A stretch of 64,000 nucleotides of DNA from Capitulum mitella. Taxonomy: Eukaryota; Arthropoda; Thecostraca; Pollicipedomorpha; Pollicipedidae. Below the pieces are notes generated by a model. That model ran no database searches. It had not been told where the DNA came from and was given only the letters and a program-made list of their open reading frames with translations. Numbering within the stretch: the stretch's first letter is position 1; each line of letters starts with the position of its first letter. A program made the translations under genes and the position numbers. Below are positions 1 to 62,225 of this stretch, piece by piece. The stretch lies in the NCBI GenBank assembly GCA_030062745.1, contig CP099849.1, positions 13,676,144 through 13,740,143 on the forward strand, in the 5' to 3' direction.

Positions 1-953
1 AACTGGCATGAATCGAGAGATTATGGATAGGGCTTTTACCATGGGTATGCAAATTTGAAATTTTGAGAAAATTCATGGGCGTTCACAGGGTTTCAAAAAT
101 ACGAGGATTAGTTCTCTAACGACTGAATGAACAAAAGAGGCCAAAACACTTTTTTAGCTTCTGCTAGTCATGTTATGCTAAAGAAGTACAAATCGTATTA
201 CAATGCTTGTATAATTTTAGCATAGGCGGTGCCAGGGACATAAAAAAAGGGGGAACTGTCATGGTCACACGTTCTTCAGATCAACTTGTGACCTTTGACC
301 TTAAATGACCTCCAGTGACCTTGGGGTCACCTGGAATGATGTCGTGTGCATTCAATATTATCTGTAAACGTTTTTAATCGATTGAATTCACTCTATTCCA
401 ACAAATTCATTTTTTGGCTTTTGCGATATAGGGTACGCGCACTGACATTTTAGGTCATAGCTCCGTGACCCGACCTGATGTCAAGCTGAAACATGGTACA
501 CAAGTAGAGGGCACCTTTCTACGTCATATATATTCCGGGTTTGGCATTTGAAAAAACGGCGCCGAAATTATTGCGAAAAAACAAATTTTGACTTTTGACC
601 TTGACCTCACCTTGTAAAGTGACCTCAGATAAACAAAATTACATATGCACATTGCCCAACTATTTAGCTATACATTCATTTAAAGTTTTAAGTTTTATCT
701 TAAAAACTCTGTTTTTGGCAGCCATTTTCCTTTTACTCTCAACATGGCCAAAAATGACCTGAGGTGCCTCCCAAAAACATTGCCTGGCTCCGCCCCTGAG
801 CAAAATAGAATTTCGAAATTTTGTCACGGCGCGTAGAAGGAATAGCTAGGAAAAGTGACCAAGTTTCGTGAAGCTGCGTTAAAAAGCCTGGAATTGGCAA
901 GCAAAACACCCGAGGGAGGGCGGATTCCGCCCCCCCCCCTGCCGGGAATAGGG
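1..953 (-). mobile_element. TTAA-target TIR element, copy 1 (cut by window edge)
   Basis: This is the inverted copy of the element at 44,916-46,112, with recognisable similarity along its whole length. It ends with CCGGGAATAGGG followed by TTAA at 954-957. No transposase reading frame is visible. It contains a perfect DR1 nuclear-receptor-type motif at 289-301. The terminal CCC...GGG with TTAA flank suggests a non-autonomous piggyBac-superfamily element. Confidence 0.8.
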
Positions 954-1185
954 TTAATAAACTGGTTTGTTACGCATTATTTTGCGCAGCCCGAGTCGGT
1001 CATAATACATAAAATCATGTTCTCATACTTCCCATCAGTTGTCAGCAGTCGGGTGCGGTATAGTCGACCGTAGCCATGCGAACCTGACCTTGTTAACTTA
1101 GCCTATAGCCGTGCGCGTTTGACAACGTTCGGTGTCGGAGAGCCGAGGCGTCCAACTGTTCGCGTAAGGTAGCAGGACGACTAAC

Positions 1186-16564
<15,379 letters not shown>

Positions 16565-18421: not shown

Positions 18422-18425
18422 TTAA

Positions 18426-18495
18426 CCCTATTCCCGGAGGGCTACACGGTATGGTAGATTCCCGGCGGGGGGGGGGGGCGGATTCGGCCCTCCCT
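18426..18495. mobile_element. Terminal fragment of the TTAA/CCCTATTCCCGG element
   Basis: TTAA at 18,422-18,425 is followed by CCCTATTCCCGGAGGGCTAC and the rest of the right-end sequence seen in inverse at 46,060-46,112. A G-run follows. Only about 70-110 bp of the element survive. Confidence 0.8.
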
Positions 18496-18580
18496 GAGAT
18501 CTATAAGCAAATGACTCCGCCTGAATTTAATGATCCCCCCTGAGATCTAGAGCAAATAACTCCGCCTGAATTTAATAAGA
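18492..18580. repeat. 46-bp tandem duplication
   Basis: A segment with TGAGATCT and ACTCCGCCTGAATTTAAT occurs twice at an offset of 46 bp, directly after the TTAA-element fragment. Confidence 0.8.
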
Positions 18581-19780: not shown

Positions 19781-22760
19781 TCATTGGTGGCTATCATACC
19801 CCAAGTCAATTGCGGTACATGTGTAAAAGCAAACGGAGTGAAAACATGCGCATTGCATACAGAAAATGCACCGGCGTTGACACGATGTGCGAGAGCGACG
19901 CGCCAGCCTGGTCGGATGCTCGGTCACGGTCGAGATACCACTGTCTCGTGGCGTGGGCAGAACTCTGACTTCGGAACGCTTTGAGCTCATTGGGGAGCTG
20001 GTCATACATTGTGGACGCTCTTGAGGAAAACTGCCTCTTCCCTGCCCCCGTCCTAGAACGTAAGACATCCAGCAAGTTTATCTGCCTGATAATCCACTCT
20101 TTTACTGCTCTGTTCGCGCACAGCAGGTCAGCCAGGAACTCTGGTTCGCCGCGAGAGGGCATCTTGTGCGCCAGGCTCATTGCGGCCAGGCTAGCAAACT
20201 GCTGGGAGGGGATTCAGCCAAGTTTCTCACGCTGGTCACGTGATCAAATTTTCTACGGCCAAAAATTACTGGAACTGCGTTGTTCGAAATCTTCTGAATT
20301 TTGTGCATCTTCTTTTTTATCCTGTTGCAGAAGACGAATAGACAAGAACGGACCTGCCAAAGTACCAGAACTATGACTAGCATTTTGACAATGCTCTGGG
20401 GCACAAAATGGCGGACATGGGAGTCTGGTGTTCCCATGCAGCGACGGCTGACGAGTGACACATGGACGTCTCAGGATAAGGTTTTGTCGAAAATGTTGTC
20501 CAGATTTTTTGCCTCTTCACAGGGTTCGAGGGTAGCGTCACGAAATGTGACTTCAGTTTTGGAAGGGTGCGCAAAATTTGGCGATTTCCGAAAGCGATGA
20601 GTTCGGCTTTTGTCGCGCTAACCTTGAGGGCGCTCAAGCGGAACCACAAGTCCAGAGAGGCGAGAGATTGCTCAGGTTCGGAAATAAGCACTGGGCCCTT
20701 TTTGCACTTTACGAACACCCAGGTGTCGTCAGCGTACTGCACGGGACTGGCCTCTGCCGAGAGCGACGCCATGACGGAGACTCCGTGACGTGACATGTCG
20801 TTGGCAAAAATCGTGAACAGAGATGGTCCGAATGCTGAACTCTGAAATACCTGAAAGGCCTGATGGCAAGCGATGGTGATGTCACCATCTGCCCTGAGGT
20901 GTTTTTGAGAGCTACACTTCATGTGTGTCCACGGAGGTAAAATGAAAACCAACGGGTGTCAACGCCGTGCAACTCGAACTTACCAATGACGCTGATGGTA
21001 TCAAAACTTGGCTGATGAAATCGAAACTTGCTAAGATCAAGCAAACATAAAAAAATATTCGCCTGCTATCGGCGGCGGAGAGGAAACGATCGGCGACTGT
21101 CACCAGCGCAGTTTCCGCCAAATGGTAAGAACGGAAACCGTTCTGGGACGGGGAAAGAAGGTTGTTGGAGGACATGTAAGGGTAAAGTTGATGCTATGCT
21201 ACCCGCTCTTCCACTGGAGAGGACGGGAACAGTGGATATGGATCTGAAGTTGAATGGCTCGGATCACCGGTTTTTTGGATGGATGATGGCGTGAATGATG
21301 GAGTGTTTCCAGGACTCAGGAAAGTCGGAATTGGCAAGGCTGGTGTTAGTTATGCGAAGGATGGTGTCAGTGATAGCAGGGAAACTGACTGTAATCACGT
21401 GGATACAAAGTCTGAGCTGGCAGCGCCCGAATTAAGCATGCAGGCGACGGTACGCAGCACGCAGGTCGATGGGCGCGACAGAAAAATGACAAACACCGAC
21501 CCTGGGCAAACGGCAAGCCACATCAGGGACTGGCCCTTGCCTAGCGATCTAGGGCGCAACCCTAGGTGATCCAACTGAGACGAAATATGAGTTCAGATCG
21601 TCACCAGTCACCTGCGGCTGCGTCTTCTGATCGCCATTTTTGTTACCGATTCCACTGCGCATGTTCCGCCAGACTGTATTCGGGCCCTGCTCATTGATTC
21701 GGTGCTGGATGTCGGCTCGAATGTCACGACGGATGGCGGACCTCAACTCGCGGTTCAGTCGCAGTTCAGTTCGCGGTTCAGTTCACGGTATTCGAGCTAC
21801 TCCCGCCCACCCGCTATCATAACAACCCGGCGACGCGACATGAGCTCCCGTGTGGCAGGGGAGACCGGAGGCACGATGGGTTGCGGATGGTGATAGTTCT
21901 TATTGGGGCGTATTTGTTAAGAAAAGGTAAAAAAAACTACCCCACTTGAGGTCTGTTGTTACCGAATTGAAAATTGCTCCCCAGTTAACACGGCACAGGT
22001 CACCGGGAAACATGGCCAGGTCGATGCGTTTCAGGCTGCGCGATAGAACGTTTGCTGGCTTTTGCCTAATTCGAGGCACGTCAATTGCAGCGAGAACAAG
22101 ATCATGCGGGCTAAAGTTACAGACACTTTACGGCAGTAAACACTGACATTGCGACTGTTAACAACTACGACATCAAGCAAGGAACCGATGGCGTAAGTGG
22201 GCGAGCTTACCGCTTGGCTCAACAAATAGGCATGCAAAAACTCTTTGAGTCTCACCCTAGAGGGGTCTGGCGGGCCCTTCATCAGGTTACAATTCAGGTC
22301 ACTGCACATGATGATAGAGGCTACAGGATGATCTATGATACCGCGCTGCAGCTGGGACTTCAGATCGTCGAAGTTGGCCTGCAGAGCGGCAGCGGTGTGA
22401 CGTGGAAGGCTGTAGAGGCAGCAGAGTAGCATCTGCCTGCCTCGGGATAACTTGAGGATAGACCACATGGCCTCCAACTTGCTGTCCGGAATGGCCGACG
22501 ACGTAATGTTTGCTAATACCTGTTTTGCAAGGCTTACAGAACAGGGTGTGGACCTTAGAAAATAGCGGCGATATGAAATCGGCGACTACGCTATCTCACC
22601 GAGCAAGATACCAGTTGCAAATCGTGCCGTGCCACTGACCCTATCCGCCACACGGGTTAGCCACGACACGAGCTCAAATTGAGAACAATTACGAATTTCG
22701 GATTTGCATGTCATTTTCGACGGCAAAAGAGCGCATTTCCGTGACGAAACTGGAAGCACC
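19781..22760 (-). pseudogene. CR1/L2-like LINE, endonuclease plus RT plus C-terminal tail, decayed
   Basis: Minus-strand blocks occur in the correct order. An AP-endonuclease-like part at 22,477-22,031 carries LCCLYSLPRHTAAALQANF, IIMCSDLNCNL and SPTYAIGSLLDVVVV. A linker at about 21,750-21,550 carries RINEQGPNTVWRNMRS. Then come ITVSFPAITDTILRITNTSL at about 21,400-21,330, SPSQNGFRSYHLAETAL at about 21,160-21,110 and SLFTIFANDM at 20,830-20,800. The RT catalytic box YADDT is intact near 20,730, followed by KAELIAFGNRQ at about 20,600-20,560. RKFDHV at 20,250 and the tail AGKRQFSSRASTMYDQLPNELKAF at about 20,045-19,975 close the order. Frameshifts separate the blocks, so it is inactive. It is better preserved than the copy at 9.3-11.1 kb. 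No ORF1 protein was recognised. Confidence 0.9.

Positions 22761-27237: not shown

Positions 27238-27308
<71 letters not shown>
27238..27308. repeat. (TA)n microsatellite, left end of palindrome
   Basis: About 70 bp of alternating T and A with one C interruption. Confidence 0.98.
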
Positions 27309-27310
<2 letters not shown>

Positions 27311-27608
27311 GGGCGTTTCGAGGGCACGTTTTCTAGTATGCAGATATCGTTAAACGTGACAGCATTTTCATATTTCCTTGTATTCAGATCATCTTTGTAT
27401 TATAGAATTTCCTTTTTTTACGATTTTTCGCTGTTCAGCCGAAAGCCAACTGCCAAAAGATTTCACCATGAAGACAAGAAAAATCGCATTTAAGGAAATG
27501 GTAGGCAAATAAAAATTCATTTTTTACATGATATCTATGCTTATGCATTTTACCGTTTTGACCTCCATGGGTCATCTCCAGGAATCGAATTATAATGAAT
27601 TCATACAG

Positions 27609-27614
<6 letters not shown>

Positions 27615-27653
<39 letters not shown>

Positions 27654-27656
27654 TAT
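27615..27656. repeat. (GA)n microsatellite
   Basis: About 18-20 GA units with a small interruption. It is the mirror of the CT tract at 29,285-29,341. Confidence 0.98.
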
Positions 27657-27699
27657 AGAGACGTCTTGCGCAACGATTAGTCAGGCACTTTATACAAAA

Positions 27700-28319
27700 G
27701 AACTGTCGTTCAGAGCCAAGTGTGTATGTGTTTTGTTCTCTGCATTAATAACTGATGTGTGATCTCTGATGAATGTTGTCTCAGCGACCGCCAGCCGACG
27801 TTTATCGTGACACTACAGAAGGATAGCATTGTTGTTCGTCAGCATGGTCCTAGTCAAACACTGCCCGTGGTGTTCTCGTAGGTGGTTCTTAGGGCCACCC
27901 TCCTGCATGTGCATTGTGAGGCGGCGGCTAAGAGTGGTAGTGGAGTGGCTGACCTAGTATATGTTGCGGGTTGTACAGTCCCCAGTAGTACATCTGAAAC
28001 GGTATGCTACATCGGTCTGTTGAAGTGCTGTGGCTTTGAATGTATTGTTACGCATAACGAGAGAGGAGGTCTTAGGTGTTTGCAGTATATGATGAATCGA
28101 ATCTTGTGGTGTTTCTGGACGGGTCTGATGCTCTTCGTGACTATGTCCAGGATAGCCTTTTCGTCCTGTTTCCCTGATGGTGTCAGGTGTTTTTGTAGAG
28201 GATGGGGATATCGGTGTCAGAGTTGGTGGTAGAGTCACGGGTTTCCTGACCAGTAAGACAGAAGTTTTTATGTAGCGTGGTTTGCGAGATGGTGTCAAAA
28301 TCTCTCTTGCTATAACCAT
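27700..28319 (-). pseudogene. Penelope-like GIY-YIG endonuclease end, left arm
   Basis: Reading leftwards the frame gives RNNTFKATALQQTDVAYRF, a CTTGDC cysteine pair, NIY, then HSTTTLSRRLTMHMQEGGP and KNHLREHHGQCLTRTML, followed (frameshifted) by KRRLAVAETTFIRDHTSVINAE. This is the C-terminal endonuclease of a Penelope-like element, including the downstream arginine and the Glu-helix (AETTFI). The YIG part of the motif is mutated, with a stop and then VS. The RT domain is absent. Confidence 0.8.
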
Positions 28320-28689
28320 TGTTCGCTAACACTTACCCTCCGCAGCGCCGCGTCCAAGCATGCCCAGGTGGAACAATGCTTTAACGCCCGCCGCACGAAC
28401 GACCTAATTACTCGGCGCTTATAGCCATCGATGCAGTCGCAGCACCATTCTTGCACCGTGCTGGCGATTGCACCGTTTTGCACCATGCTGGTGAGTGTTG
28501 GTGATTGCACCGATGGCTATAAGCGCAGCGTAATTAGGTCGTTCGTGCAGCGAGCGTAAAAACATTGTTCCACCTGAGCATCTTTAGACGCGGAGCTGCA
28601 AAGGGTGCGTCCAATATTAGTGAACAATGGTTATAGCAATAATGATTTTGGCACCGTCTCGCAAACCATGCTAGGTAAACACTTCTGTC

Positions 28690-29265
28690 ATACCGGCCAG
28701 GACACCCGTGACTCTGCTACCGACTTTGACACCGATATCCCCATCCTCTGCAAGAAGACTTGAACACCCTCATGTAAAAACGACGAAAAAGCTACCCAGG
28801 GCATAGTCACGAAGAACATCAAACTCGCCCAGACAAACAAAATATTCGGTTTATGGCATATTGCAGAGAACCTAAAACCTCTTCTCTCGTTCTGCGTAAC
28901 AATACATTCAAAGCCACAGCACTTCAACAGACCGGCGTAGCATACCGTTTCAGATGTACTACCGGAGACATCTGACTGTGCAACCAACAACATATACAAC
29001 ATCGGCCACTCCACTACCACTCTCAACCGTCGCCTCACAATGCACTTGCAGAAGGTAATAAAGCCATCTCCGAAAACACCATGGATAGTGTTTGACCAGG
29101 GCCATGCTGACGAACAACACTGCTATCCTCCTACAGTGTCATGACAAACGTCGGCTGGCTGGCGTCGGTTGCTGAGACAGCATACATCGGAGACCGCACA
29201 CTAGTTAACAACGCAGAGGACAAAACTCACACACCTTGTATAAACTGTCCGACTTGTCATGGTGA
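28690..29265 (+). pseudogene. Penelope-like GIY-YIG endonuclease end, right arm
   Basis: Reading rightwards the frame gives NNTFKATALQQTGVAYRF, then after a short frame change NNIYNIGHSTTTLNRRLTMH (the GIY-YIG motif with arginine) and, further on, a VAETAYIGDRTLVNNAEDK tail. It is the inverted counterpart of the left arm. It has stops and frameshifts, so it is not functional. The two coding ends point away from each other. Confidence 0.8.
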
Positions 29266-29284
29266 AAGACGCCTCATTATTTCT

Positions 29285-29296
29285 TTCCTCTCTCTC

Positions 29297-29341
<45 letters not shown>
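29285..29341. repeat. (CT)n microsatellite
   Basis: About 27 CT units with one CCC interruption. It sits at the equivalent position in the right arm of the palindrome. Confidence 0.98.
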
Positions 29342-29343
<2 letters not shown>

Positions 29344-29576
29344 CGTATGAATTCGCCGCGTTTCGATCCCTGAAGATGACCTATGGATTTTTATTCACCT
29401 ACTATTTTTCGTGTTATATTTGGACATTAAATGTGATTTTCCTTGTTTTCATGGTTAATTCTTTGGCAGTTTCTTTTCATAACGTCTCGGCTGAACGGCA
29501 AAAAGTCGTAGGAAAATTTAAAAAAATCTAAAGGAAAAGATACAATCTTAAAATGCTGTCATGCTTAACGATGCAC

Positions 29577-29614
29577 CCACAACCACACCCACACACCCAC
29601 ACACCCACACCCAC

Positions 29615-29689
<75 letters not shown>

Positions 29690-29729
29690 AATGTACATGT
29701 ATGCGTATATACATGTGTGTATCATTAAG

Positions 29730-29777
<48 letters not shown>

Positions 29778-29800
29778 TATGTATATATGTATATATAGCC
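29577..29800. repeat. Compound CA-rich, (AT)n, (GT)n, (AT)n microsatellite
   Basis: CACCCACA-type units occupy 29,577-29,615, (AT)n 29,618-29,674, (GT)7 about 29,675-29,689, and a second (AT)n 29,731-29,790. Confidence 0.97.
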
Positions 29801-33060: not shown

Positions 33061-34079
33061 ACGAGCACTTACCAAACACACAACTCATCGCTGGCAATTT
33101 TCCACGTCCACGTTTCGCGAGTTATGGCGTCAAAGAAACAAAATGCGAACATCAGCATGATCGCCATGGCTTACCAGACAAGCTGAACTACTTTTCATCG
33201 GTATGCACACAAATCTGACATTTTGTGGTCTAGATACCTGTGTAAAGCACTTCCACCAGTTTCCACTGTGCGCTTCTTCCAGTGGAGCGTTGCCGTTTTC
33301 AGCGAGTAGAGGTTTTTGATAACGTACGTCAAAGAATGCTTTTACAGGCAGAAAAGGCTTCGTGCTTTTGGAATCCCACAGGAGAGAACGATGAATGGAG
33401 GGTAAACTGCAAATCTTTCGTGTCGATCATCTGATTTCATTGGATTTAACACGTTTTATTTACTTTCCCGGGAAGTATGTGAATAACATCTACGCTAAGT
33501 TGGGGCCTAACAACCAGTGAAAGTGTTCCGAGTCTTCGAGGCTATATTTCCACCGCAGAGCATTGCCAGAGGGCGTAAATTTCCACCGTCGTACGTTGCC
33601 GAGTTGGCATTTATTTTCACCTCTGTCCCTTTCTCTCATTTCGGCATTCGGACGGCAGCGAAGGGCAATTCCGGCACAGGCCACCATGGCGACTTCACCA
33701 CATTTTCTCAGATTTCGTTCAAAATTAGTGCACAGACATGTTCAGGGACCTGATTTCGATTCTCGGGTTCATAAATCCGTGGGTTCAAGAAGCCAAGAAA
33801 TACAGGTCATTAAAAATGTGATGCCAAGACCGATGACCAACAACATACGGTACTATATCTCTATGATAAAAAAAAATTGTAGCGAAAGTTTTGTTATAAC
33901 TTTGTTGAAGGTTTCTGTACATCATTAGAAAGAAAAAGAACCAAAGAATGGGTTTCTTAATTTAGTTAGTTGACCGTAGGCTCCTTTTTAAGACCAAGTT
34001 CAACACATTTTGCATGTTTTGATTCGTTTTAAATTGATAAAAACGTGGGCTATATTGGTGTTAACTGCTAACGAAATTA

Positions 34080-35910
34080 AATTTTGTAGTGGAAACTCCT
34101 TAAGAGAAACGGGGGTCATGTGTCACGACCTAATTTGACCTCAATGCTCACTAGCCTCGATTTCTTAAAAGATATAGACAACATGGGTATCATCTGAAAG
34201 CATGCATTATGCGGAAGACATCCATGACATCATTGTCCACCTTTCAGTTTGTTTTCATATGTCTACCTCTTACCAGTGTATGGCATTCCGACAATTTCGA
34301 TGGTGTTTGGGGGGAGGGGTAAGAACCCCCCTGATAAGCCCCTAATCGAGCTAGAGTCGCGAAATACAAACAAGCGTGTTGCTCATTATAACAGAGGGTC
34401 ATCGGCATCCGTTTGTAAGGCTTTAGGTCAACCGGTCATCTCCCAGGCCAGGATTGTGACCCGAAATTGGTAAAAACCGTGATGCTTTTTGTTGGAGAGT
34501 CACAGAACAAGACTTTTAACAAGTAGAGAAATCGGAGAAGGAACGTAGCACTCATTGAGGCTTTGCATATTCTTCATCATTACTTTCAATCAATGACACA
34601 GATCAGGTCATGGCACATCCTGTGACCGCCCAGAATGGCATAGAATTTAAAGCTCTCTGACGGCCATAAAACAAACATGAATGGGTCGGAATGGTTTGAA
34701 ATGGATGCCTAATTCGAAATCAGCGCCTCAAATACGTAGCAGACCTCTGGTCACAAAAGTCATCCTAGATCATCCGAGGCCACTGACCTCAGGTGACCTC
34801 AAGAGAGCCACGAACTTAGTGTTACCCATAGGAATCGTTTCTTTACAAACAGACCGGAACTTGTATCATTTGGTTTCATAAATTTGCGATTTCCTGACAT
34901 TTTGGACAAAATTATCCTTGGGTCGCTGACTTAGGACGTCATTTGTGGACATTTGCAAGGCTAGTTTTCCCACAAACGTTGGGAAATGACGTGTTTGCGA
35001 AAGGAAATGGCCCTGAAGAGACCAGCTGCGTTCCAACTACGTGTTAACAGACCACACCGATGTTTCCCATGAAATTTATTCACCTGTTACTATAACACCT
35101 ATGGGTTTCACTACGTCCGTGATTCTTTTGAAGACGCCTGAGGTCAGTGACCTCGGATAATCTAGCAGCTTTTTGGCGTTGGGTAAACTGGGGTATTTTA
35201 AATTGGTTTCGAATTTGGGGTCCATTTTAAACAATTACGACTCATTTACGTTCATTTAATGGCTGCGAGACGGTTTTGTTCTGAGACGTTTCAGGAGGCC
35301 ACAGGTTTTGAACAGATCTGACCTGTGTCCTTGCTCGATAGTAACCACGAAGGACATCGTTAGATTTGCAAGGCTTCAGTGAGTCTTATGATTATTTCAG
35401 ATTTTTCTAACTGTAAAACATTTTGTTCTGTGACCCTTGAAGCAAATCGTCTTGCGATTTTCACCAATTTCGGGTCATTGGCCTAACCTGGGAGGTCACC
35501 AATTGATCTAAAGCCTTAACAACAAAAACCACTGGCTTCCTTGTAAGGCGAACAACACGCTTGTGTGCACTTCGCAGCTCTAGCTCGATTAGGGGCTAAT
35601 CCTAGGGGGTTTCTACCCCCTCCTCATGCACCATCGAAGTTATCGAAATGCCATACACTTGCGAAGGGTAAAACATATGAAAACAAATTAAAAGGTGCAT
35701 AATAGGAAGGGTTGAATAACTAAAAGGAAGGATAGATATTGAAGCCACGCATGTATTCTACATAAAAAATGCCTTCAATTCATACCCATATTTCGTCTGT
35801 CTTGGAGTAAATCGAGGTTAGTAAGAACTCAAATCAAGTCATGTCACATGACCCCCTTTCCCGATAAGGAGTTCCCACTGCAAAATGAAATTTCATCGGT
35901 ATATTACAAC
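34080..35910. repeat. Long inverted repeat nested in the larger one
   Basis: The left arm, about 34,080-34,940, pairs with 35,050-35,910. Shared pieces include GGAAACTCCTTA/GGAGTTCCCACT, AATCGAGCTAGAG/CTAGCTCGATTAG, GACCCGAAATTGGT in both, TCACAGAACAA, GATCATCCGAGGCCACTGACCTCAGG/CTGAGGTCAGTGACCTCGGATAAT and CCCATAGG. Arms are roughly 850 bp and diverged. No coding capacity was recognised. Confidence 0.85.
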
Positions 35911-35912
35911 AA

Positions 35913-35978
35913 TTTAATGTATTATAATAATAAATAATATTATAATATTATAATAATATTACAATATATTACCAACAA
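35913..35978. repeat. AT-rich (TAATAT)n-like tract
   Basis: Degenerate ATTATAATA words immediately after the right arm of the long inverted repeat. Confidence 0.85.
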
Positions 35979-36329
35979 TTTAACCTATATTTGTGTTACT
36001 TTAACACACGTTCTGGAAGGTGGTCTTTCTGTGCCCCCCCCCCCCAGTTTTTCTTCAAAATCTCGAGAACGAATCGAAGCTGGTTGCTGCTATTTTGTCA
36101 CATTTATGGCAGTTGAATAACTCGTCGAATAACGCAGAAAAATCGAAAACTGGCCGGAAATTTTGAAGTTTCAAGCACTTGAAGTCAAGCAAACATAACG
36201 AAAATAACGGTTGTCGCTGACAAATGGGAACTTTGTGAAAACACTAGCTTTCTACCTTAAGATTACCGCTTGAAAACAATCACTCGACGTCATTTGGGCG
36301 TAAGTGATGGATGTACCAAGACCAAAGCC

Positions 36330-36610
36330 AGGGTCATTAAGGGTCAAGGTCATCAAAGGTCAAGACCAACCAGCTTGTGACCTGATCCAGATTTGCGTTG
36401 CGATATGTCAAAGACCTTAATAAAAATACGTGTGCGCACATGGATACCCTTATATACATCAGGGTAAGTGCAGGTCAAGGTTACCAAGGGTCAGGGGTAA
36501 CTGTTTTGTTGCCTGGTCCAGATTTGCTTTGCCCATATGTCTATTTGTGTGAAATATGCATTCAAAGACCCTACTAAAAACACGTTTGGCACACTGATAC
36601 TGATATGTAT
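36330..36610. repeat. 131-bp tandem duplication with AGGTCA words
   Basis: CCAGATTTGC occurs at 36,387 and 36,518, with matching AAAGACC-TA-TAAAAA-ACG and TATGTC flanks. A TATACATACA microsatellite follows at 36,604-36,650. Confidence 0.8.
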
Positions 36611-38004
36611 ATACATACACACATATACATACATACATAAATATAAACGTTGGAAATGATCAGATGTACCGATGTTGGCTACCTTCACTGAAAATACACT
36701 GAAAGATGCGTGTAGCGCCTTCATTTACATTCAAGCTATCCCATGTTGCTCGAAATCTGACCAGCAAAAAATGAAAAATGGCGTCATAGGTCAATGGCCT
36801 GACATGACCTCGACCCGAAATCCTCAGTCAAGGCATCAGATGGTCGGAAGTTGTCGTATTCCACATTTTAACGTCCAAACAAGTGCCCTTTTCACGTTTC
36901 GTTTGAAAAGTTTTACGGAATGGCATGTACTGGCCGGGAAAGTGTCCAAAGTTCACCTTTTGGACCCCATTTGGCCTTGAAGACATTAACCTAGGGTCAT
37001 GCAAATTGCACATAATGTATATCGTTATAGCCCCACCCTGTCCACAATATTTCATGTTTCTAGCGCTATCCGTATCCAAGATCGGAGAGGGGCACTTTTA
37101 TGCAGTTTTGTGCCCCCCTTCCAGTGCGCGTTAGCTCAAAACCCCCTTCCATTTTGCGGGTTAAAATTAATGAAAAGAAGGAACATGACCTGGAAAACAG
37201 ACATTGTCTGTAAAAAGTAACTTGCACATGTTACAGATTTGACCTGAGAAGGTCAGATTCTATGGCAACATATTCCTTGGCTCTTTTTCTTTCTAATAAT
37301 ATCTAGTTTTGTTCTTATAACTTTTTTAACCCGTCTCCGACTGAGGGGGCAGTTAACTGCTCCCCTTGCATTTTTCTGAGATTGCGAGAGAGCGAACAAA
37401 CACAGAGCCACGAAACTTCGTGTACCTTTTGCTTCATCAATTTTACATCTCGTGTCAAAATTTTCACCTCAGGTCAGGTCAGCTGCCTGACCTAGGTCAG
37501 ACCAAACGGACCTATGTCCAAAAAAGTTTAGCGCCCTCTAACTTTTTCGCAAAACAAGATATCTCAATAATACTTTAAGGGTCGCCGTTTTTTCGGAAAT
37601 TGACGGAATATTTCAAAACATTTTTAGTGTGGAGTGAAGCACACATCCCGTTACCGTCATTGGGGAAAGTATCAATGACTTCCAGTCATTGACCTGAGGT
37701 CAGGTCACGAATAACTGTAGTGCGCCCAAATGCACTACCGTCAAAATCGGCGATGAATTGCTCAGAATGGGTAGAAAATGGCAGAACTAGCTTGCACAGA
37801 CGTAAGTAATACCAGAAACCTCAAAAAGTTTGAAAAAGTAGCATATTTTGGAAAGAAACAAGCTCTCGCGAATAAAGCTCCGCCAATTTTGTAAATTGGT
37901 AACTACTAAATTTTTCCAAAATTTAAGCATGAAAAACCATCACAAGAACCACTAAGATCAATCAAATATATATAGATCGTCTTTTTTCGCGAAAATAAAG
38001 GAAC

Positions 38005-38635
38005 GCTAAAATTAGTTCCCGTCAATTTGTTAGTTCATACTGCAGTAGCGCACGCCTAGCAGCTGTCGCGAGAAATGCCGTGTCTTTAACTCAATGTTTT
38101 GGCGTATATATTGAAGAAATCTGGAGAATTAGACGTGTATCGGCATCCGCAGACCTTGACTTGTGCGCTGGTGCCTTTACCTATGCGTTTTTAGTCACAG
38201 CCCTTGGCATTCAGGCCATTTCTCGGTGTGATGCAGTCGGCTATGAGAAAACATATATTTAGGGCGTAAAACACATATAATTTTAATTTTTGCGCTATAT
38301 ATAAAACATATATATAGGGCGTAAAACATATAATACTAATTTTAGCCCTATATATAAAACATATGTATAGGGCTAAAATTAGTTCCCGTCAATTTGTTAC
38401 CGCATAGGGTAGCAGCGCACGCCTGCAGCTGGCGTGAGGATTGCCGTGTCTTTAACTTAACGTTTCGGCGTATATATTGAACAAATCTGGGGAAATTAGA
38501 CGTGTATCGGTGTCCGCGAACCTTTACTTGTACGCTGGTGCCTTTACCTTTGCGTTTTAGTCACAGCCCTTGAGATTCAGGCCATTTCTCGGTCTCATGC
38601 AGTCGGCTATGAGAAAACATATATAGGACATAAAT
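38005..38635. repeat. Tandem duplication (offset 368 bp) inside the TTAA insertion
   Basis: Both copies start CTAAAATTAGTTCCCGTCAA (38,005 and 38,373). Both run through GCCGTGTCTTTAAC, GCGTATATATTGAA, TTAGACGTGTATCGG and CAGTCGGCTATGAGAAAACA. Confidence 0.95.
38336..38382. repeat. Perfect 15-bp hairpin at the duplication junction
   Basis: CTAATTTTAGCCCTA at 38,336-38,350 and its exact complement at 38,368-38,382, with a 17-base AT-rich loop. Confidence 0.95.
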
Positions 38636-38746
38636 TGCTTACATATTATCTAAAACTAAAAATGAGACCAGTTTCGAGCTCTACTCGTCACAAGCTTTCC
38701 AACGGTATGGTTATTTCTTATCGTGCGACCAACCGTTCGTGAGTTA

Positions 38747-38780
38747 GAGGGGGGGGCGGCCAACTGCCCCCCCCCCCAGT
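38747..38780. repeat. G-run/C-run pair, subterminal hairpin of the TTAA insertion
   Basis: A run of about 8 G followed by CGGCCAACTG and a run of 11-12 C. It could fold on itself. Confidence 0.85.
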
Positions 38781-39180
38781 CGCCCATGTTCGAAACGGAC
38801 CGACGGTTGTGTGCGGGTTAAGTCATGGAGATATCGTGCCATACATAATTAGTTGTCGGTCTTGACAACACATTGTCAGTTATCTGTATCTGGTGATCTC
38901 TTGACCCCTCGAACAGACAGAGATAAGAGTCGAAAGCAGGGCCTGGAACAAATCTACATAGCAATTTTGAGGAAAATCTGAGAGGGTGCAGTGAATTCAC
39001 CTTCGTGATCTGTCCTCGAATTGCCCTTCGGTGCTGTCTGAACGCCAAAGTGAATGAAAAGGGCGATGTTTTGAGCCATGGGAAGGCCATCTAGACACTC
39101 GAACTGTCGGATATTATGTTTGTTTTGGAAAGACAACTTACCAGGCGTATTACCTGCGGAACAAAAATTTAGCAACGGAA

Positions 39181-44911: not shown

Positions 44912-44915
44912 TTGA

Positions 44916-46112
44916 CCCTATTCCCGGCAGGGGGGCTAAATTCGCCCCCTAGGGTTTTTTCTTGCCAATTCCAGGCTTTTTTGACGCAGCTTCACGAAAC
45001 TTGGTCACTTTTCCTAGCTATTCTTTCTACGTGCCGTGACAAAACTTCAAAATTCCATTTTGCTCAAGGGCGGAGCCAGGCAACGTTTTTGGGAGGCACC
45101 TCAGGCCATTTTGGTCATTTTCAGGGGAAAGAGAAAATGTCTGTTAAAAACAGCGTTTTTAAGGTAAAACTTAAAACTTTATATGGATGAGAAGCTAAAT
45201 AGTTGGGCAATGTGCAGATGTAATGTTGTTTGTCTGGGGTCAGTTTACAAGGTCAGGTCAAGGTCAAAAGCCAAAATTTATTTTTTGCAACAATTTTTGC
45301 GCTGTTTTTTTTTCAAATGCCAAACCCCAAATATATAGGACGTAACAAGTTGCCCTCTGCTTGTGTGTCAAATTTCAGCTTTGTATCAGGTCGGGTCACG
45401 GAGCTATGACCTGAAATGTCAGTGAGCGTACCCTATATCGCAATAGCCATAAAGTGAAAGTTTTGAAATAGAGTGAATTCAAATGATTGAAAACGTTTAC
45501 AGATAATATTAAATGCACACGAGATCATTCCAAGTGGCTCCAAGGTCACTGGAGGTCATTTACGATCAAAGGTCACAAGTTGATCTGAAGAACGTGTGAC
45601 CATGACAATTTCCGTTTTTTCAAGTCCCTGGCACTGCCTATGCTAACATTATACAACCATTGTAATGCGATTTGTATTTCTTTAGCATAACATGAATAGC
45701 AGAAGCCAAAAGTGTTTTTGCCTTTTGTTCATTCAGTTGTTAAAAACTAATCATCGTATTTTTAAAACCCTGTTAACGCCCATGAATTTTCCCAAAATTT
45801 CAGTTGTGTGTACCAATGGTAAACGTCCTATCCATAATCTCTCGATTCATGCCAGTTTGATCGAAATAGGTCCATAAACAACGGAGTTATAAGAAGCCCA
45901 AAAATACCCCTTATTTTTGTCATTTTTGCCCCCCTGTATCCACAGTTCTCAAATTTTTAGAATTTCTTTCTATAAAAATGCAGTTCACCTCATGGCCAAT
46001 CGACTGCCGTTTGTTGCAATGAAATCGGGTGTGTAGTTCTCGAGATCTCAGGGGGCCAAATCCGCCACCCTGCCGGGAATCGACCATACCGTGTAGCCCT
46101 CCGGGAATAGGG
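44916..46112 (+). mobile_element. Full-length TTAA-target TIR element, 1.2 kb, non-autonomous
   Basis: The left end is CCCTATTCCCGGCAGGGG, preceded by TTGA (one change from TTAA). The right end is CCGGGAATAGGG, followed by TTAA at 46,113-46,116. The right end holds a second, internal GCCGGGAAT motif about 40 bp in. It is homologous to 1-953, 6,585-7,755 and 18,426-18,495. It has no transposase frame. It carries several AGGTCA words, including a direct repeat at 45,255-45,266. Confidence 0.88.
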
Positions 46113-46199
46113 TTAAAAAGTCATACTGTGAACACATTTATTACTACATGAACATTTAACTTGGCAGAAACGTAATCATGGATGTTGCGGTCAGTTCTT

Positions 46200-60940: not shown

Positions 60941-61179
60941 CAAGGACGTTGGTTAACCCGCCATTGGCTGGGTTAGGGTCAAGTTTTAAGTTTTTTTCAA
61001 GGTTTTTCAATCTACATTTTATCTCCCTCGCGTCGCGATGTCTGCTTAACTCTCAAAGACTCCAAGCTGAAAATTTTGCTATTTTTTGCACCTTAGTTCT
61101 GCACCAAAAATCACTGCACCGTAGGTCGCCCTATAATGACGTCAGAGCGACGTCAGCTCCGCAGAATTTTAAAGTTAAG

Positions 61180-61480
61180 AATAGACCTAAAAAACTGCAG
61201 AAAACGTAGTTTTAACGATAAAATGCCTTTTTTAGCCAAAACATGGCTCAACATGAAATGTTTGGAACCGCTATCCCATAATTTTGATAAGGGCAACTAC
61301 AAAAGCACAAAATGGCAAACTCAGAATTTTGAACTGAAGCAAATGTTTTTTAAGATTTATTATTTTTCAAGGAACGGCATACATATATGACGTAAAGAAC
61401 TGTCCTGAAAGTGTGTATCAAATTTCAACCCAGTATCCCAGAAAGACGGCCTTATTATGACACTTCAAAGGTCAATACTT
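61180..61480 (+). repeat. Possible old relative of the TTAA/CCCTATTCCCGG element
   Basis: The CATACATATATGACGTAA--AA segment followed by GTGTATCAAATTTCAACCC resembles 45,330-45,390 (ATATATAGGACGTAACAAG and GTGTGTCAAATTTCAGC). No ends were seen. Confidence 0.45.
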
Positions 61481-62225
61481 ATCGGCATCTCGTCGACACG
61501 GGCTGGCCGGTGACGGTGGTAGGTAGATATGGTAGTGCGTTTAGCTTTGTCGTTATCATCGGTGATCGTTGTAGTAAAACAGCCAAGCCACGGCCAAAGG
61601 CCGATGAGCTCTTTGCGGAAACGTAGTCAGCTTTAAGGGCGTCTCAGTGTCAGGTGTTTCAGCCAAAGTTTAAAGCAAGAAATGCAGCATTATTTTGAGT
61701 AATGGCGTTTGGGACGAGGTCACACAGCAGAGGGCAAACGATTGCCGCAGGATTCATTCAAATCCAACCATCAGGTTTTGAGATACAAATATTCCACTAG
61801 GTTGCCTTTTTTGCACTTGACCGCTAACCTGTACAATAACAATCTTAAATCTATGTTCTCAGCAGCAGACTCCATTGCATCTGTCTAAGGTGAATTTCAA
61901 TATGTCTGTTTTTTCCACGCCACTAGCACCATTGGGACGGACCATAGCACTGCCCTGTTTCAGTGCTTGACTTTGATCTGTGACCTTATTCTTGAAATGA
62001 AACAAACATCTTTGTATGTCCCAAGGTTGCACAGCAGAGGATCGACGGATCGGCGGATCGGGAGATATAGATGACCGACTTTTTGAATCATTCAGATGGT
62101 TCATTGGTTCCGGACATGCCCAGGAATGCCCATTTGCCATTCCCATCAATGCCGGGTTTACTTCATTGCTGTTTCATTTTATTGTTGTGTTGCAAGGACA
62201 AAGAAGGTGTCAAAATATGCGATAA

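Follow-up and report, generated by a model that had tools for sequence, protein, structure and literature searches.

A TTAA-flanked insert in one arm of an inverted repeat is very probably a member of a large nonautonomous piggyBac-superfamily family

This study analyzed a 64-kb stretch of the Capitulum mitella genome (the window), which lies in a 477-Mb assembly of 16 contigs. An insert in this window, element A, is very probably a copy of a large nonautonomous family of the piggyBac superfamily; its TTAA insertion site lies within one arm of a dispersed inverted repeat that is older than the insert. The original prediction had proposed a mobile unit with a TTAA target duplication and piggyBac affinity, and all three points were upheld by the genome copies, their ends, and the empty sites. 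Furthermore, A and two other elements, B and C, which are unrelated to one another in sequence, each have a subterminal palindrome at both ends, at a distance of about 25 bp from one tip and about 54 bp from the opposite tip. The features are listed in Table 1.

Table 1. Features identified in the 64-kb window
Feature	Position	Strand	Remark
Element A, nonautonomous piggyBac-type insert	37326..38821	+	atypical copy; both TTAA included
Left TTAA target-site copy of A	37326..37329	.
Right TTAA target-site copy of A	38818..38821	.	TTAA at 33/38 family right ends
Left subterminal palindrome of A, GGGGGCAGTTAACTGCTCCCC	37345..37365	.	centre 25-25.5 bp from tip
Right subterminal palindrome of A, G/C runs	38749..38777	.	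centre about 54-56.5 bp from tip
Internal tandem duplication of the window A copy, 364 bp	38251..38614	+	not in family majority
Site of the 96 bp of the family majority missing from the window A copy	37580..37581	.
Element B, second insert flanked by TTAA, right host arm	36001..37164	+
Host inverted repeat, left arm	33619..34832	+	holds empty sites
Host inverted repeat, right arm	35098..39069	-	interrupted by B and A; dispersed repeat family
Element C2, third TTAA-type nonautonomous family	44912..46116	+	left TTAA decayed to TTGA
Element C1, C copy cut by the window start	1..957	-	87% to C2
C3, right-end fragment of family C	18422..18502	+
Element D, internally deleted piggyBac	13050..14618	+	perfect 15-bp inverted repeats after TTAA
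D ORF, N-terminal piece of a piggyBac transposase	13601..14104	+	167 aa

Alignment of the two host arms revealed that the large inverted repeat is real. Positions 33619-33866 aligned with 39069-38823, the homology ended no more than 2 bp from the outer TTAA, and it picked up beyond A at 33921/37300, confirming that the left arm runs through without the insert. The insert was located exactly between the two TTAA copies, and it begins with CCCG and ends with CGGG just inside them, as had been claimed. The predicted empty site required one correction: at this point, the left arm reads ATGATAAAA and does not contain TTAA. With A and B excluded, 842 of 1,360 aligned columns of the arms were identical (62%), and the host repeat is an old one, older than A. 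The arms recur elsewhere in the genome as inverted pairs approximately 2 kb apart (contigs C1, C3, and C4), indicating a host repeat that is dispersed and fold-back-like. Elsewhere in the window, a palindrome of approximately 2.4 kb at 27238-29797, the halves of which are 73.6% identical and have (TA)n / (AT)n tracts at their outer edges, looks like a separate fold-back element. The tRNA and Rfam scans of the 64-kb window yielded no match, and its longest ORF does not exceed 302 aa. Two of the 10 long window ORFs scanned exhibited weak reverse transcriptase matches, namely RVT_1 fragments at 9666-10310 and 20377-20952 (-) with E values of 2e-4 and 1e-4, which are under the family cut-off.

We examined whether the ends of A recur in the genome. 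The left tip CCCGTCCCCGACTGGGG occurred exactly 1,992 times genome-wide, directly after TTAA in 1,785 cases (90%); the reversed pattern, used as a control, did not occur, and the TTAA background in the window is 271 in 64 kb, or about 0.4% by base position. Most of the 10% of tips without TTAA could be explained by mutation alone at about 5% divergence. The genome search with A returned 8,164 first-look candidates; scoring covered 40 of them, namely the window copy and 39 others, and the main pieces of the 39 other loci were 90-92% identical to A. One of these loci (L047, contig C16:8346500-8351600) contains two adjacent A copies and was excluded when the ends were counted, which leaves 38 single copies. 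By direct match or short extrapolation, the left end fell at A position 1 in 37 of the 38; TTAA was present at 30/37 left ends and 33/38 right ends, and at both ends in 27/37 copies. The left ends, the paired TTAA, and the tips after TTAA thus revealed that the copies share the boundaries of A. At two loci, the sequence on either side of the A copy was not TTAA: ATAC flanks both sides at L028, and ATAT flanks both sides at L027, where the AT-rich context leaves the duplication length ambiguous. Such pairs cannot be element sequence, and they therefore demonstrate target duplication.

An intact member of the A family measures about 1.22 kb, and the copies range from 1,190 to 1,289 bp, a length that rules out a MITE in the strict sense, which is defined as short, usually under 500 bp (PMC2872659). 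The copies differed from the family majority by 3.3-5.9% (K2P; median 4.7), and the window copy differed by 5.8%. The window copy is atypical compared with the 37 other copies in both the missing 96 bp and the 364-bp duplication; the repeats behind the latter, 38005-38270 and 38372-38634, are 87% identical. An all-against-all comparison of the 150-bp flanks yielded two matching pairs: the downstream flanks of L013 and L021, and the flanks on either side of L027. At a single place, retrieved as both L014 and L007, an A copy adjoins B pieces in both orientations. The CCC..GGG tips are well preserved: at either end (37 sequences each), every one of the first three positions shows the consensus base in at least 92% of the copies. 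The terminal inverted repeats of piggyBac elements measure 12-19 bp; the inverted tip consensuses of A are short and imperfect, matching at 10 of the first 14 bases by eye. Because of such imperfect tips, A did not stand out when the window was searched for pairs of TTAA whose tips match: three TTAA pairs reached 12 of 16 tip matches, and several of the 16 palindromic 4-mers tested did as well. An exact search of viral contigs with an A-internal 28-mer yielded no match.

No sequence similarity was found in the comparison of A with B, further copies of which come from loci retrieved for other purposes. A second case of nesting was seen at L065, where a D-type piggyBac has entered a full-length B copy at TTAA. 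The genome search with C returned 9,418 candidates, and the 40 scored matches span from about position 1 (14 at the latest) to 1202-1205; the 39 matches besides the window's own were 86-89% identical. TTAA was present at 19 of the 20 ends of 10 C copies, and an exact search of bacterial and archaeal genomes with the C tip yielded no match. An old relative of C, about 62-64% identical and with decayed ends, was observed at 6579-7879 (-). A possible further TTAA element lies at 60953-62160, with TTAACCCGCCATTGG at 60953 and inverted CCCGGCATTGATGGG near 62159; 94 bp inside it are weakly similar to C.

We then compared the positions of the subterminal palindromes. For each A-family end, the best 22-bp palindrome was taken, and ties were assigned to the centre nearer 40. 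At the left end (n = 37), the centre lay at a median distance of 26.5 bp from the tip, and at the right end (n = 37), at 54.5 bp; averaging ties gave 26.5 and 55.3 bp. The left palindrome was 22-34 bp from the tip in 34/37 ends compared with 183/740 base-shuffled ends, and the right palindrome was 50-61 bp from the tip in 35/37 ends compared with 118/740. Palindrome scores of at least 9 were reached by 24/37 left ends and 14/37 right ends, compared with 17 and 24 of 740 shuffles. The medians for C were 25.5 and 53.0 bp (10 ends each), and the values for B, each read by eye from a single end, were about 24.5 bp (L014) and 53.5 bp (L065). In single copies the palindrome test is weak: the left and right p values were 0.009 and 0.09 for A, 0.035 and 0.31 for C2, 0.75 and 0.76 for B, and 0.75 and 0.76 for D, and a composite of C1 and C3 yielded p < 0.05 at both ends.

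In A, B, and C, the left-end motif also recurs at the right end, where it is displaced inward by 27-28 bp. The motif-shift scores were 10 at a shift of 27 for A, 10 at 28 for B, 21 at 28 for C2, and 20 at 28 for the two-copy composite of C1 and C3. In a control comprising 4,058 window TTAA pairs, true pairs included, a score of at least 10 at shifts 26-30 was reached in 0.25%. Element D did not exhibit the 28-bp layout in this TTAA-pair test and showed a shift of 22 instead.

This arrangement, with palindromes at both ends and approximately 28 bp further in at one of them, is of the LE35/RE63 type known from piggyBac of Trichoplusia ni, which likewise targets TTAA. The minimal ends of piggyBac measure 35 and 63 bp, and both contain a 19-bp palindrome (PMC7351741). 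Positions 34-63 of its right end are almost identical to positions 7-35 of its left end (PMC7351741), which amounts to an inward shift of 28 bp for the repeated stretch. The structural work concerns this one moth element, and the asymmetric ends were termed puzzling and enigmatic by those who solved the structure (PMC7351741). In contrast to piggyBac, A carries no transposase, and its tip and palindrome sequences differ; the palindromes of A, B, and C are G-run/C-run sequences of variable length. By analogy, a piggyBac-type transposase supplied in trans would move A, its cysteine-rich domains binding the tip and the subterminal palindrome, and it would cut via a TTAA hairpin and rejoin at TTAA. 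At the end of A where the palindrome lies approximately 28 bp further in, an additional transposase dimer would be bound on the inner side, in line with the model for piggyBac LE35/RE63.

To identify the possible source of such a transposase, we analyzed the piggyBac genes of the genome. The claim that there is no transposase held for A, which has no long ORF and encodes no protein, but not for the genome, where Pfam DDE_Tnp_1_7 produced 118 matches, some of them pieces of one gene, and not entirely for the window, which contains D. Alone, the D ORF matched Pfam weakly (E 0.23), and the comparison with solved structures returned no match; comparison with the genome's own transposases settled its identity. 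D was 97.5 and 95.6% identical over two pieces to the transposase-bearing locus L049, with an internal deletion between them, and its ORF was 94% identical over 154 aa to the N-terminus of the L049 transposase. Among the best 30 of the 118 matches, 29 loci fell by tips or protein similarity into two families, D (tips TTAACCCATTAACGCCCAG, about 2.9 kb) and E2 (tips TTAACCC[A/T]TTAGTGCCCA, about 2.7 kb), and the remaining locus, L066, was about 49% identical to D.

The families D and E2 or the L066 type could themselves move A, B, and C, and no separate piggyBac lineage would then be involved. Their transposases share a cysteine-rich end wherever the reading frame is long enough, and the E2 ends of the two loci tested matched weakly, over 8 or 7 bases, at shift 29, a level that about 2 and 5% of the control pairs also reached. 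However, the D and E2 tips differ from those of A, B, and C past TTAACCC, and the shift of D is 22 rather than 28. None of the best 30 of the 118 transposase loci had the tips of A, B, or C at both ends; single A-, B-, or C-like tips were observed near 5 of the 30 (L050, L056, L062, L063, and L077). On balance, mobilization by these autonomous families appears less likely than not.

The combination of TTAA with CC..GG tips identifies piggyBac, which has CCC tips, and Sola3 is said to duplicate TTAA as well. A exhibits a TTAA target with a 4-bp target-site duplication and 5'-CC..GG-3' tips, and its fourth base, G, departs from the T of the usual tip, CC[C/T]T (PMC2872659). The original prediction treated the TTAA duplication as the hallmark of piggyBac; the affinity stood, but TTAA alone is not diagnostic, because Kolobok elements, which are present in many animal phyla, also produce TTAA duplications (PMC9587614). 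Nevertheless, a nonautonomous Kolobok (or Sola3) identity of A is very improbable. Kolobok ends are 5'-RR..YY-3' (PMC9587614) and are excluded by the CCC..GGG tips of A, the AGGRR ends of T2-MITEs (PMC6004289) are unlike its CCC start, and its end layout is that of piggyBac.

The assignment of A to piggyBac was complemented by an analysis of its insertion site. The host repeat without A and B, with the junctions at 305 and 470, was used as the query; it returned 121 genome candidates, 40 of which were scored, and an empty site was counted by eye when the match extended at least 20 bases beyond the junction on both sides. Among the 40 scored candidates, the junction of A was crossed unbroken at 35 paralogous places besides the window (66-77% identity) and that of B at 7 (69-81% identity). 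The letters were checked for 17 paralogs, leaving out a meaningless local match of the left arm that would make 18 for A. The junction of A was crossed in all 17, with TTAA in one and TTGA in most; that of B was crossed in 6, of which 5 had TTAA in the aligned column, and the empty site of B in the left arm still reads TTAA. Because the paralogs mostly read TTGA at the site of A, the target probably became TTAA in this host copy before the insertion. The empty sites are best read as sites that were never filled. The contrary history, in which the left arm lost the insert or a rearrangement produced chance TTAA at both breaks, is very improbable, for although piggyBac excision is seamless and restores an empty site, so that one arm pair alone cannot separate gain from loss, and although an exact TTAA is missing here from the left arm, the 35 further empty paralogs make a gain in one arm the simplest history and the exact left tip of A occurs at about two thousand other places.

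As a nonautonomous piggyBac-type family, A resembles several described elements. CMITE of Acropora corals is likewise nonautonomous, with a TTAA duplication and CCC tips, and it shares with A the tie to genomic piggyBac-like elements and, in its case, an allelic empty site (PMC2872659). CMITE is about 100 bp long, its repeats measure 13-14 bp, and its internal region is conserved, whereas A is about 1.2 kb, and no subterminal asymmetry is reported in the parts of the CMITE description cited here (PMC2872659). CsuPLE1-like insect elements have 13-bp terminal repeats and asymmetric 25-bp subterminal repeats, which were called characteristic; unlike A, CsuPLE1 is autonomous, 2.4 kb long, and from a moth (PMC4273485). 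The piggyBat element of Myotis lucifugus also belongs to the piggyBac superfamily and carries a left-end motif and a palindrome at bp 19-30, but its right end has no palindrome (PMC11707139), whereas A, B, and C each have one there. The D family of the same genome shares the TTAA target and CCC tips with A and differs from it in encoding a DDE_Tnp_1_7 transposase, in its perfect 15-bp repeats, and in lacking the 28-bp layout.

Asymmetric subterminal repeats are thus already on record as a typical feature of insect piggyBac-like elements (PMC4273485), and the asymmetric assembly of piggyBat has already been compared with the 12/23 rule (PMC13405395). What the present analysis adds is the occurrence of nearly the piggyBac numbers in three nonautonomous families that are unrelated to one another and belong to another genome; a limited search of open-licence papers found no description of the 28-bp layout in nonautonomous families. 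The layout does not extend to the whole superfamily, since D has a shift of 22 and the right end of piggyBat lacks a palindrome. We tentatively propose that the 28-bp offset may reflect a conserved rule of spacing, akin to the 12/23 rule, that applies to a piggyBac-type subset of the superfamily, leaves D and piggyBat outside, and has been kept by three families unrelated in sequence in a genome remote from moths; the proposal is possible, if somewhat less than even in our judgment.

The finding is otherwise ordinary genome biology, that of a genome full of nonautonomous DNA transposons. If the spacing rule is true, A, B, and C would be three independent dependants of one piggyBac lineage, the transposase of which would be rare, decayed, or lost in this genome, where A and C have a high copy number. 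In the high-copy families, the palindromes stay near 26 and 54 bp while the palindrome sequence and the G-run length vary, and these families constitute an evolutionary data set on the spacing and the bases that the inner transposase dimer needs.
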